Origin: Thermodesulfobacteriota bacterium
GTDB taxonomy: Bacteria > Desulfobacterota > Desulfobacteria > Desulfobacterales > JAUWMJ01
Direction of reading: 5' to 3'
Length of the DNA stretch: 64,000 nucleotides
NCBI GenBank assembly: GCA_034189135.1
Contig: JAXHVO010000021.1
Coordinates: 1-64,000 of the forward strand
Below are positions 5,495 to 9,678 of this stretch, one piece after another (position 1 is the first letter of the stretch; each line of letters begins with the position of its first letter). Below the pieces are notes generated by a model. The model was not told where the DNA came from. It saw only the letters and a list, made by a program, of their open reading frames with translations, and did not search any database. Made by a program: the position numbers and the translations under genes.

Positions 5495-5929
5495 TTATTC
5501 AATCGGATATCCGGCTTTTTCCCAAGCCTTCCAACCACCAGCCATATTTTTGACGTTTTTGTATCCCATTCGACAAAGGGTACAGGTTGCCAGGCATCCC
5601 CGTCCTCCGCTCTTGCAGTACATGGCAATTTTGGCATTCTTGTCGGGGATTTTTTTAGCAATCTTAAACTCCAGCAAGCCCCTGGGGATATTCATTGCCC
5701 CGGGGATATGTCCCATTTTAAACTCCTTTTTTGTCCGACAGTCCAAAAAAATATATCCGCCTTTGTCTAGTAGGCCTTTGGCTTCAGAGACCGATACCTC
5801 ACAAATATTTTTTTTGGCTTCGGCCACAAGCTCTTTGGCTGTCATATCCTTGGCCACCGCAACAGGAGCGGTCAGAGCCAAGGTTGAAACTATAGCCAGT
5901 ACAAATACAAACAGAATACTTTTTTTCAT
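5495..5929 (-). CDS. Exported rhodanese-like domain protein
   Basis: 144 residues: signal peptide (about 1-26, ending VAVAKD), then a single rhodanese domain with FLDCRTKKEFKMGHIPGAMNIP and active-site loop CKSGGRG, where the first Cys would carry a persulfide. An extra CxxxC (CLATCTLC) lies just downstream. Periplasmic single-domain rhodaneses move sulfane sulfur or serve in redox metabolism. AAAGGAGG lies 7 bases before the ATG. It lies 160 bases downstream of the multiheme cytochrome on the same strand with no visible terminator between, so it is probably in the same sigma-54-controlled unit. Confidence 0.9.
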   Translation of the reverse strand: MKKSILFVFVLAIVSTLALTAPVAVAKDMTAKELVAEAKKNICEVSVSEAKGLLDKGGYIFLDCRTKKEFKMGHIPGAMNIPRGLLEFKIAKKIPDKNAKIAMYCKSGGRGCLATCTLCRMGYKNVKNMAGGWKAWEKAGYPIE

Positions 5930-6090: not shown

Positions 6091-7209
6091 TTACTCATTT
6101 CTCCTTTTAGGGGGAATCAGATGTTTGGGCACAATCACATTTTTGTTCGCCTTTACATATTTTCTTTTCACATCCTTTTTAAGCAGAAACAGTTCTTTAT
6201 TTCCATGACAGGCATTGCACGTTTTGTTTTGCGGCGTCTGTCTTCTTATATTATGCGGCGTAGCCAGTTTCCACGTGGGAAGTCTATCAAAGTTTTTCAA
6301 TCCACGCTTGACATAAAACTTAAAGGTATCCTGATCCACCGGGATATGACGAACCGTAACAAAACTTTCGGGTCTTTTTTCCGATTTCGCGGGATTCAGA
6401 CCGATCTTGAATTGCATGTCTGACGACTTGGTTTTAAAGAACTTAAGGCCTTTTTTATCCTTTCCAACATGACAGGCATAACAGTTTTTGTAGGGCTGTG
6501 AATGACAAACATTACAGCTCACCTGATCTTTATGAATCCAATGGTTTTTAACATTTTGCGCTTTTGCGTCATAGATCGCCTGATGGCAATCCAAACATTT
6601 GGGACCGTTTTCCACCTCATAACGATTCGCATAATCCTTGCCATCCCCGTGCATTTCATCTGCTTTGTGGCACTTATTGCATTTAAAATATTTTTCTTTA
6701 TGTATATCCGGTTTAAATCCCTTATTTTCACCGAGATACTCTTTTCCGACCCGGCTTCCGTGACAAGCCGTACAGACTTCCTGCATCGGAGGTCTTTTCT
6801 GGAACAGGTGTCCTTCCAGTAATCCTCCTTCCACCGAATCAGGACGGCTGATATGGCATTGCCCGCAACTGCTGTGGCAGGCACTGCAATGACCCTCTCT
6901 GGCCGCATTTACCTTTTGGTGGACCGGCTTGTCCGTATTCGCCCTGGCGTCTATTATTTTCTTAAAAGGAGACAGGCTAATGTGAAGGCTGGTTTTATAG
7001 TTTTCTGCAATCTCTTCATGGCATGCACCGCAACTTTCTGACGGATCAGGAAAGGATGGATCTTTGGCTACTCCTTTGTGGGCTTTACGCCAGTCAGGTT
7101 CGTCTGGATTACCACCATGGCATTCCTGACATTCAATCTCACCATGATTTTCATCTTCGGCTATTTCGCTGTCCACAAAGAGCTTTTCGTGCGGAGCCAA
7201 CGGCTCCAC
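6091..7209 (-). CDS. Multiheme cytochrome c, main part (10 CxxCH) after in-frame TGA
   Basis: 372 residues from GTG 7209, with ten CxxCH heme sites: CQECH, CGACH, CSACH, CGQCH, CTACH, CNKCH, CLDCH, CNVCH, CYACH and CNACH. It has no signal peptide of its own, yet heme attachment requires export. The signal peptide and an eleventh site (CFTCH) are in the same frame immediately upstream, separated only by one TGA (7219-7221) and three codons. The two parts therefore almost certainly form one 447-codon undecaheme protein. The GTG lies inside a hairpin stem and is a doubtful start. Possible explanations are selenocysteine or stop readthrough, a recent nonsense mutation, or a sequencing error. It probably acts as a periplasmic or outer-surface electron carrier; the partner is unknown. 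Confidence 0.8.
   Translation of the reverse strand: MEPLAPHEKLFVDSEIAEDENHGEIECQECHGGNPDEPDWRKAHKGVAKDPSFPDPSESCGACHEEIAENYKTSLHISLSPFKKIIDARANTDKPVHQKVNAAREGHCSACHSSCGQCHISRPDSVEGGLLEGHLFQKRPPMQEVCTACHGSRVGKEYLGENKGFKPDIHKEKYFKCNKCHKADEMHGDGKDYANRYEVENGPKCLDCHQAIYDAKAQNVKNHWIHKDQVSCNVCHSQPYKNCYACHVGKDKKGLKFFKTKSSDMQFKIGLNPAKSEKRPESFVTVRHIPVDQDTFKFYVKRGLKNFDRLPTWKLATPHNIRRQTPQNKTCNACHGNKELFLLKKDVKRKYVKANKNVIVPKHLIPPKRRNE
7191..7209 (-). promoter_or_regulatory. SECIS-like hairpin just after the in-frame TGA
   Basis: On the minus strand the TGA is followed by nine bases and then GTGGAGCC-GTT-GGCTCCGC, an 8-bp stem (one U-G pair) with a GUU loop. The loop begins 17 bases after the TGA and starts with G. 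These features meet the general bacterial SECIS model (loop roughly 16-37 bases after UGA, G at loop position 1 or 2). The stem also covers the GTG at 7209. It could be a chance product of GC-rich codons. Confidence 0.35.
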
Positions 7210-7218
7210 CGCTCCACC

Positions 7219-7434
7219 TCATCCCTCTCCTTTCGTTTCTGCTGAAGCTCCGGGCTTACCTTTATTGACTTTAGCAATCTCTCTGGTGATCTTTATCAAC
7301 TTTCGTGCATTTGTATGGCAGGTGAAACAGTAATTCTCCTTCTCTGCCGATCGGGCCCCCGGGCTGCTATAAAGCAATAAAAGGGAAACAGCAAAGACCA
7401 ACCCCAAACAAATGACAACTCTAATGGCTTTCAT
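7219..7434 (-). CDS. N-terminal part of the multiheme cytochrome c (signal peptide, first heme)
   Basis: 71 residues: hydrophobic signal peptide (about 1-29, ending GARSAEKEN), one heme site CFTCH, a charged helix, then a small linker (GKPGASAETKGEG) ending at TGA. The stop is in frame with the ten-heme segment that begins three codons later (GGA, then VEPLAPHEK). ATG 7434 follows AAGGAGCAAGACC. Alone it would be a monoheme peptide, which seems unlikely. The glycine-rich codons on both sides of the TGA would also fit a single GGA-to-TGA change. Confidence 0.75.
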   Translation of the reverse strand: MKAIRVVICLGLVFAVSLLLLYSSPGARSAEKENYCFTCHTNARKLIKITREIAKVNKGKPGASAETKGEG

Positions 7435-7543: not shown

Positions 7544-7891
7544 TCAGCGGCTATACTTGAATCCAGGCATATGAAACCGAGGTTCGTTTAGCTTCTTAGA
7601 CAAATATGCCGCCACTATCTGGTCTATCTCTCCGGCAATGCCGGTGGTTAAATGGATCTTTGCACTCTGAAGCATGTGGTAAAGCAAATCACTGATTCCG
7701 CTGCATATAATGGTTTTAACTTTCAGCTTTTGCAAAATTGCCGCGCGTTCCGTTATGGACAACTGATCCAGATAGATCTCACTTCTTTCTATTTCTTTGC
7801 TATGGTCAATATCCACCAACAAGAGCCGGGTACATGAATCAAACACCGGCGAAACCCTTGATTGAAAAATGGGAATCGCAATTCTAACCAT
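7544..7891 (-). CDS. NifX/NifB-domain (dinitrogenase Fe-Mo cofactor biosynthesis) family protein
   Basis: 115 residues matching the NifX/NafY-type cofactor-binding family: start VRIAIPIFQSRVSPVFDSCTRLLLVDID, then TIICSGISDLLYHMLQ and the C-terminal GEIDQIVAAYLSKKL. Family members bind metal clusters or precursors. In anaerobic deltaproteobacteria, short versions occur far from nitrogenase, so no role in nitrogen fixation is claimed. A consensus sigma-54 promoter lies about 90 bases upstream, and the cytochrome begins 110 bases downstream, so it is probably the first gene of the unit. That gap holds two Shine-Dalgarno-like motifs and a possible 20-codon ORF that I do not consider convincing. 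Confidence 0.85.
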   Translation of the reverse strand: MVRIAIPIFQSRVSPVFDSCTRLLLVDIDHSKEIERSEIYLDQLSITERAAILQKLKVKTIICSGISDLLYHMLQSAKIHLTTGIAGEIDQIVAAYLSKKLNEPRFHMPGFKYSR

Positions 7892-7977: not shown

Positions 7978-7993
7978 AGCAATATACGTGCCA
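7978..7993 (-). promoter_or_regulatory. Sigma-54 (-24/-12) promoter
   Basis: The minus strand reads TGGCACG-TATA-TTGCT, an exact match to the sigma-54 consensus TGGCACG-N4-TTGCW with correct spacing. Transcription would start near 7966, about 75 bases before the NifX-like gene. A sigma-54 activator gene lies divergently at 8338, which strongly supports function. Confidence 0.85.
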
Positions 7994-8337: not shown

Positions 8338-9678
8338 ATGAAACTACCTAAAGAACAAATTAAAGAACACTATCAAATTATCTTGGACAGCATTGCAGAT
8401 GGCGTTTTTACGGTTAACCTGGATTTACACATTACCTCCTTTAACAGAGGATCAGAACATATCACCGGGATCCCCAGAGAAGAGGCGATCGGACGGCCGT
8501 GCTTTGAAGTCTTAAGGGCCAGTATGTGTGAAACCGACTGCCTTATTCGCAAGACCATTGAGGAAAAAAAACCGATTGTAAACATGCCGGTCTATATTCT
8601 TCGTGCGGATAAAAAGCGCATTCCCATCAGTGTGACCACCGCTTTGTTGAAAGATTCACAGGGCGAGATTATCGGAGGCGTGGAGAGTTTCAGAGACTTG
8701 ACGGTAGTTAACAAACTGAGGAAAGAACTTCGCAAACAACATTCTTTTGACGATATCGTGAGCAAGAGCGGGAAGATGCTCGAACTTTTTTCAATTCTGC
8801 CACAAATATCTGAAAGCAACAGTACCGTGCTGATTATGGGGGCAAGCGGTACCGGAAAAGAGCTTTTTGCCAGAGCCATTCATAACAATAGCCTGAAAAA
8901 AAAGGGGCCTTTCATAGCCATCAATTGCGGTGCCCTGCCCGACAATCTTTGCGAAGCCGAACTCTTTGGATACAAGGCCGGTGCGTTTACGGATGCAAAA
9001 AAAGACAAGCCCGGCCGGTTTGCCCTGGCCCAGAATGGGACCATTTTTCTAGACGAAATCGGTGATATCTCAAAGGCCGTGCAGGTCCGCTTGCTCCGTG
9101 TTCTGGAAAATAAGGTCTACGAACCTTTAGGATCCACCAAAACAATCAAAACAAATGCCAGGGTAATTGCGGCCACCAACCGAAACCTGGAAAGTATGGT
9201 AAAGGAAGGTAAATTCAGGGAAGACTTGTATTTTCGTATTGATATTATAAAATTATCACTACCGCCTCTTTTAGAACGAAAAGAAGATATTCCGCTGCTG
9301 GCAGACCATTTTTTAGAACGCTTTAAGCATTTAACCGGCAAGAAAAACGTAGGCCTGTCCCAAAAGGCTGTAGCCGCACTGATGCTCTATGATTGGCCGG
9401 GAAATGTACGTGAACTGGAAAATGCCATCGAACACGCCTTTGTGCTCTGCCGGGATGATTTGATCCGCATGCATAACTTACCTGACCGGATTGTACCCAA
9501 AAACGATTCCGTGCTTGTCCCCACGGGTTTGACCCTCAAGGAAATTGAAAAACACGCCATCCAGCAGGCCCTTCAAAGAAACCAGTGGAAAAGAATGGCA
9601 ACGGCCCGTGAACTGGGCATCGATAAGAACACCCTGCGCCGTAAAATCAACCGGTTCGGAATCGCTACACCCCGTTAG
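8338..9678 (+). CDS. Sigma-54-dependent activator (PAS, AAA+, Fis-type HTH)
   Basis: 446 residues. PAS sensor (about 8-120: IILDSIADGVFTVNLDLHI, and GGVESFRDLT at its end), sigma-54 AAA+ domain (about 135-365: Walker A GASGTGKE, sigma-contact loop GAFTDA, Walker B GTIFLDEIGD, arginine-finger region NVRELENAIEHA), and C-terminal Fis-type HTH (WKRMATARELGIDKNTLRRKI). The loop reads GAFTDA rather than GAFTGA, a variant I associate with PAS-type activators of anaerobes. Divergent from a consensus sigma-54 promoter, so it most likely controls the NifX-cytochrome-rhodanese unit. The PAS has a few Cys residues (CFEVL, CETDC); the signal it senses is unknown. Confidence 0.95.
   Translation: MKLPKEQIKEHYQIILDSIADGVFTVNLDLHITSFNRGSEHITGIPREEAIGRPCFEVLRASMCETDCLIRKTIEEKKPIVNMPVYILRADKKRIPISVTTALLKDSQGEIIGGVESFRDLTVVNKLRKELRKQHSFDDIVSKSGKMLELFSILPQISESNSTVLIMGASGTGKELFARAIHNNSLKKKGPFIAINCGALPDNLCEAELFGYKAGAFTDAKKDKPGRFALAQNGTIFLDEIGDISKAVQVRLLRVLENKVYEPLGSTKTIKTNARVIAATNRNLESMVKEGKFREDLYFRIDIIKLSLPPLLERKEDIPLLADHFLERFKHLTGKKNVGLSQKAVAALMLYDWPGNVRELENAIEHAFVLCRDDLIRMHNLPDRIVPKNDSVLVPTGLTLKEIEKHAIQQALQRNQWKRMATARELGIDKNTLRRKINRFGIATPR

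Follow-up and report, generated by a model that had tools for sequence, protein, structure and literature searches.

An undecaheme cytochrome c gene with a conserved in-frame UGA: a predicted selenoprotein family of sulfate-reducing bacteria

Two neighbouring open reading frames on the minus strand of the window (the whole 64-kb stretch of DNA that was analysed) look like a split pair, but judging from their sequence and that of their relatives they are almost certainly one intact gene, encoding an exported eleven-heme electron-transfer protein with selenocysteine (Sec). We put at about 95% the probability that the UGA at codon 72 is decoded as Sec by SelB and tRNA-Sec under the direction of a hairpin, and that the protein belongs to an uncatalogued family. 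This reading adds a selenoprotein family; under standard annotation each of its members would come out as two proteins, a small exported one and a cytochrome with no means of export.

The reading frame and its conserved TGA

As the sequence-only reading had recognised, the 71-residue segment and the ten-heme segment share one reading frame, which runs through 447 codons (7434-6091, minus strand) and is interrupted by a sole TGA (Table 1). Reading through this codon yields a protein of 447 amino acids with Sec as residue 72 and 11 CXXCH motifs (at residues 36, 102, 135, 183, 190, 221, 252, 280, 307, 318 and 406), one of them N-terminal and ten of them C-terminal of the TGA. A signal peptide was called by eye at residues 1-30, and the only Pfam matches are to generic c7, c3 and c554 domains (PF14522, PF14537, PF13435); with this signal peptide, several CXXCH motifs and Pfam cytochrome domains, the protein has the features expected of a multiheme cytochrome c. 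Residue 72 lies in a Gly-rich arm, G-E-G-U-G-G, between heme 1 and heme 2.

Table 1. Features of the cytochrome locus, in positions of the window
Feature	Position	Strand	Basis
Predicted Sec-containing undecaheme cytochrome c gene	6091..7434	-	Open except for 1 TGA; ATG at 7434-7432, TAA at 6093-6091; 11 CXXCH; N-terminal signal peptide by eye
UGA codon, predicted Sec72	7219..7221	-	Sole in-frame TGA (7221-7219); TGA in 96/97 aligned relatives, Tyr in 1, Cys in 0
Putative bacterial SECIS hairpin	7191..7209	-	8-bp stem with GUU apical loop 17 nt past UGA; conserved, covarying
Hairpin 5' arm, GUGGAGCC	7209-7202	-	
Hairpin loop, GUU	7201-7199	-	
Hairpin 3' arm, GGCUCCGC	7198-7191	-	
Exported single-domain rhodanese (PF00581), next gene downstream	5495..5929	-	Pfam E 3e-24
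Small NifX/NafY-like protein (PF02579), upstream, same direction	7544..7891	-	E 1.3e-7
Predicted sigma-54 (-24/-12) promoter, TGGCACGTATATTGCT	7978..7993	-	Zero mismatch
Divergent PAS / sigma-54 activator / Fis-type regulator	8338..9678	+	PF00158 E 1.4e-65

Seen in a single genome, a TGA within a Gly-rich stretch could have arisen from GGA by one substitution, and the sequence-only reading had weighed such a mutation, or a sequencing error, on equal terms with Sec. The comparison of orthologs that it had proposed refutes this alternative. Scanned for relatives, the GTDB species collection yielded 195; in all of the best 80 of these, which were read, TGA occupies the identical column (80/80), and its context is Gly-rich, mostly G-E-G-U-G-G. 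An alignment of 97 rows has 96 TGA, one Tyr, and neither Cys nor Gly in the Sec column, and the conserved pattern of the arm is G-x-G-U-[GA]. Nearly every full-length relative in the 96 related genomes searched has one internal TGA. That the gene is a pseudogene, whether by nonsense mutation or by sequencing error, was rejected on these comparative data; such an origin, or mere low-level readthrough of the UGA, is extremely improbable given also the second TGA-containing copy in the source genome, the covarying SECIS hairpin described below and the intact frames on either side of the codon.

When 395 genomes of the phylum were surveyed, most matches to the family profile were full-length with the TGA, and a divergent clade had the Sec motif EGEG-U-AG[AP]PP. 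Because matches occur in 44 of the 246 genera sampled, some of the selenium requirement of sulfate reducers may be due to this family. The sequences derive mostly from metagenome-assembled genomes (MAGs), and the isolates include Desulfosarcina alkanivorans, D. widdelii and Dethiosulfatarculus sandiegensis. The survey contained a single intact relative without the TGA (L129), in which the site is Tyr (KGKG-Y-MVR); since this replacement occurs despite selA in the genome, the Sec residue can evidently be lost. The Tyr-variant locus (L129:252-2387 and L145:2762-4522) encodes two rhodanese domains fused C-terminally to the cytochrome and has a gene for an outer-membrane DUF3373 protein upstream.

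The lack of a neighbouring redox Cys had been counted against Sec in the sequence-only reading. We confirm that no extra or partner Cys is conserved in the 97-row alignment, but its absence is no argument against Sec, given that conservation extends to the Gly-rich arm (G-x-G-U-[GA]). Homologs with Cys at the Sec site are a common criterion for the discovery of selenoproteins, not a defining one. No such homolog was found among the 97 rows, so searches based on Cys homologs cannot detect this family.

The search for selA, selB, selC and selD, also proposed at the outset, found selA, two selB and two tRNA-Sec genes above their cut-offs, and selD in the source genome (G000), and the selenoprotein reading has been borne out both by this machinery and by the retention of the TGA in orthologs. 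The fdhA and selD genes of this genome, each with one in-frame TGA, served as positive controls, and the Sec of SelD lies in the context SGSG-U-AS. Among the 58 genomes that carry the family, 53 had a match to selA; the five with no match are probably incomplete assemblies. The two selB and two tRNA-Sec genes of the source genome are on contigs C62 and C140, and one selB/tRNA-Sec pair is adjacent (C62:115833-117874), with the Sec-containing selD about 20 kb away.

Conservation of the UGA would by itself fit decoding as some residue other than Sec, through another suppressor tRNA or a genome-wide reassignment of UGA, and nothing else in our results does. Because 16 of 79 family genes have TGA as their terminal stop, as does the NifX-like gene of the operon in the window, UGA is not globally reassigned and the recoding would be local. 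With a full Sec machinery, TGA-containing fdhA and selD genes in the same genome and a hairpin that fits the constraints on bacterial SECIS (bSECIS) elements, we regard a non-Sec residue as very improbable.

The hairpin downstream of the UGA

Bacterial SECIS elements are constrained to an apical loop of 3-9 nt, a stem of 4-16 bp, a G at loop position 1 or 2, a distance of 16-37 nt from the UGA and a minimum free energy (MFE) of at most -7.5 kcal/mol (PMC13188914). The hairpin in the window lies within all of these bounds, with a GUU loop that has G in first position, 8 bp, 17 nt and -19.2 kcal/mol (the MFE of a 42-nt stretch; z = -2.8 relative to shuffles). The 8-bp stem, the GUU loop and the general fit to a SECIS model had been described correctly from the sequence; the 17 nt that had been given as the start of the stem are the distance from the UGA to the apical loop, and the stem starts at 9 nt.

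On its own, the hairpin is weak evidence and unconvincing, because 48 of the 2473 TGA trinucleotides in the window (about 2%) have an equally long SECIS-like stem; what takes it far beyond chance is its conservation across relatives. Among 68 distinct sequences, 93.2% of stem cells are paired, against 31-49% when the stem is slid along the sequence and 81% after shuffling, and among 21 diverse sequences the corresponding values are 93.5%, 34-50% and 80%. In these 21 sequences, two-sided changes occur in 19 cells where 7.0 are expected, and the covariation score is 0.377 against 0.158 +/- 0.023, with 0 of 500 shuffles scoring as high. RNAalifold, unaided, finds the same helix.

The two commonest stems in the 68 distinct sequences are mirror images of each other, GGAGCC-GUU-GGCUCC (31 sequences) and GGCUCC-GUU-GGAGCC (17 sequences), and a GGCGCC type is also seen. 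Because the stem is coding sequence, the protein changes with it, and the encoded segment, VEPLAPHEK or VAPLEPYEK, tracks the stem haplotype. A tree built without the stem columns requires at least two exchanges between the EA and AE types, and five changes over the three states. Codon choice is similarly restricted: the Leu codon of the loop is TTG in 78 of 79 genes (background use 18%), and the Pro codon that precedes it is CCG in 73 of 73 (background use 28%). Judged by these patterns of substitution, the hairpin is under selection at the level of RNA, and the EPLAP/APLEP exchange would be a clear example of a protein change imposed by an RNA element. The Rfam model SECIS_1 (RF00031) had no match in the source genome, nor in any control genome, and an Rfam scan of the region returned chance-level matches only.

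Relation to catalogued selenoproteins and cytochromes

The family is widespread in sulfate-reducing bacteria and apparently uncatalogued. NCBIfam 20.0 has no family model for the cytochrome, and none of its selenoprotein models matches; its best model is ExtM (NF040943), at 39 bits (E 2.8e-10) against a cut-off of 800 bits. A catalogue from 2026 comprises 119 prokaryotic selenoprotein families with two multiheme cytochromes among them, ExtKL and an OTR-like octaheme (PMC13188914), and none of the 119, as far as its entries could be matched, fits the protein described here. No description of a Sec-undecaheme family was found in the literature searched or in NCBIfam 20.0. One further catalogued candidate, 'hypothetical protein DG' with a GUxG motif (NF049953), was rejected, its model being a 172-position ribbon protein with no match to the cytochrome.

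The nearest parallel is ExtKL (NF040886), which is likewise a multiheme cytochrome c that is exported and has a single in-frame UGA. ExtKL differs in having five hemes and a Sec near its C-terminus (NKAGHAIPDG-U-PTPNRL), whereas the present family has eleven hemes and GEG-U-GG after heme 1. A profile comparison with ExtKL members fetched from the same phylum aligned 21 columns, around one heme motif, and NF040886 (cut-off 250 bits) had no match in the source genome. An identification as ExtKL was rejected on the lack of a match, the differing heme count and Sec motif, and the 21-column alignment; because ExtKL has five hemes, a C-terminal DG-U-PTPNR and only these 21 columns in common with it, the Sec-undecaheme family is not ExtKL.

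Other multiheme proteins are more remote. The octahemes of the tetrathionate-reductase family TIGR04315 are also multiheme c-type cytochromes, and are listed as selenoproteins in the 2026 catalogue (PMC13188914), but they have eight hemes, and the window protein had no match to TIGR04315 at E up to 1. ExtM shares weak similarity in its heme region (the E of 2.8e-10 given above), but in PMC5877670 it has 12 hemes and is not described as a selenoprotein. A PDB sequence search gave only short heme-region matches to UndA, a cytochrome c552 and a multiheme cytochrome. An AlphaFold model (pLDDT 78, pTM 0.76) was built without hemes and kept out of our reasoning on mechanism; a PDB fold search with it returned no match (best E 1.6), as expected for a model without hemes.

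Gene neighbourhood and proposed function

The cytochrome gene is predicted to lie in a sigma-54 operon, in which the NifX-like gene (7891-7544), the cytochrome gene and the rhodanese gene (5929-5495) follow one another on the minus strand. Its promoter is the only zero-mismatch -24/-12 site in the 64-kb window. Sites with at most one mismatch occur within the 900 bp upstream in 13 of 77 other loci, where about 0.65 would be expected, and 10 of these 13 are also beside a regulator. Among the loci of the best 80 of the 195 relatives, 57 have a rhodanese gene next downstream (median gap 76 bp), 31 a sigma-54 regulator nearby and nine a NifX-like gene as a neighbour. The rhodaneses retain the loop with the catalytic Cys, which is CKSGGR in the window.

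Further arrangements extend this association. In L009, L010, L129 and L138 the cytochrome carries rhodanese domains as a C-terminal fusion, and a gene for cytochrome b561 adjoins the cytochrome gene in L085 and L088. In L143, selA is followed by an unrelated gene, the Sec cytochrome gene, genes for two exported rhodaneses, and a gene for a 621-aa protein with N-terminal hemes and a hydrophobic C-terminal part that by eye resembles cytochrome b. Taken together, the frequent rhodanese neighbour, the fusions, the paired rhodaneses and multiheme membrane cytochrome of L143, and the b561 genes suggest a link to chalcogen chemistry. Such a link has a precedent in the ext cluster of Geobacter, where the rhodanese ExtH is paired with the Sec cytochrome ExtKL (PMC5877670). 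A formate dehydrogenase cluster (FdhA, FdhB and FdhE-like, by eye) lies near the cytochrome gene in about 8-10 loci, as in the flanks of L036, L070 and L106.

Rhodaneses hold sulfane sulfur (or selenium) on a Cys. Because a rhodanese is constantly present, sulfur exchange between the selenol and the rhodanese is suggested, and because Sec72 lies in a conserved Gly-rich stretch with no conserved partner Cys, a dithiol reaction of the UxxC type is unlikely. A reactive Cys in a flexible Gly-rich stretch also carries sulfur in the GGCGG carrier arm of SoxY. This arm and the Gly-rich Sec/Cys loop of SelD are alike in their working only; no homology is claimed, and the arm considered here lies between two hemes, is not C-terminal and is not part of a kinase-like fold.

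We favour, at slightly less than even odds, a model in which a Sec arm exchanges chalcogen with the rhodanese and a heme wire connects it to the quinone pool. The cytochrome would be exported to the periplasm with its eleven-heme wire, and the Sec, on its flexible Gly-rich arm, would be the site of exchange. The rhodanese would pass sulfane sulfur from thiosulfate, polysulfide or persulfide (possibly selenium) to the Sec, the hemes would exchange electrons with the quinone pool, in either direction, by way of a partner cytochrome b, and sulfide would be released, or oxidised if the pathway runs in reverse, with transcription governed by the sigma-54 activator. The protein may thus be a quinone-linked periplasmic chalcogen reductase or oxidase, the substrate and the direction of electron flow being read from the gene neighbourhood alone. 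The broader proposal, more tentative than the model itself, is of an obligately Sec-dependent cytochrome family that belongs to a respiratory or sulfide-oxidising pathway coupled to the rhodanese and linked to quinone, with the selenol arm as the place where chalcogen is exchanged. If true, it would provide for periplasmic turnover of thiosulfate, polysulfide or elemental sulfur in sulfate reducers without a molybdenum enzyme or Dsr; the family points to a so far uncharacterised pathway for sulfur or selenium in the periplasm.

The Sec might instead have no swinging role, its selenolate (or oxidised selenium) serving as an axial heme ligand that tunes a heme or creates a catalytic site. For the eleven hemes there are only nine invariant non-motif His, and H182 and H363 are absent from the divergent clade in the 97-row alignment; because these two occur in only part of the family, an open or Sec-ligated heme is possible, and the lack of a conserved partner Cys would suit such a ligand. 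We nevertheless think this unlikely, in that most of the main group has both H182 and H363, the flanks of the Sec are Gly-rich and modelled at lower confidence than the C-terminal half, and Cys replacements, which might be expected for a ligand, number 0 of 97. Similarly doubtful is a role in selenite or tellurite reduction or in selenium supply, with the rhodanese carrying selenium. This would parallel the Geobacter ext cluster, in which a rhodanese (ExtH) and a b-type cytochrome accompany the Sec cytochrome ExtKL and mutation of extI impairs the reduction of selenite and tellurite (PMC5877670). That cluster is alike in its genomic company: the loci of the present family offer an exported rhodanese, a Sec multiheme cytochrome, a b-type cytochrome and, once, an upstream outer-membrane DUF3373 protein, and selA lies near the cytochrome gene in G312 and, in L143, two genes upstream of it. 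The two cytochrome families have no relation to each other apart from the heme motif, however, and a sigma-54 regulator, together with the wide range of sulfate reducers that carry the family, suggests a mainstream substrate. Our estimates for these three functional readings overlap in part.

Several other observations concern individual loci. A rhodanese was previously noted beside SirA/OTR-like octahemes in a sulfur reducer (PMC10376724). The Sec cytochrome gene of L143 lies at L143:4340-5728, and the proximity of selA in the other genome (G312:C19) was judged by coordinates. The source genome has a second Sec-undecaheme cytochrome gene with TGA (L027:1477-2832, on G000:C26), 51% identical and with an AE-type stem, and a rhodanese gene is next downstream of it as well. 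Both clades of the family are found together in several other genomes (L035/L090, L039/L098, L040/L094, L045/L092, L060/L105 and L073/L110), which suggests that they are old paralogs with separate roles. The gene at L109:702-2010 keeps the conserved TGA and has an apparent frameshift just downstream, from either assembly error or decay. Two MAGs labelled as Spirochaetes carry the family (L075, L076), through either binning error or horizontal transfer, and a variant with 13 CXXCH and about 585 aa is present in L082, L085 and L088.
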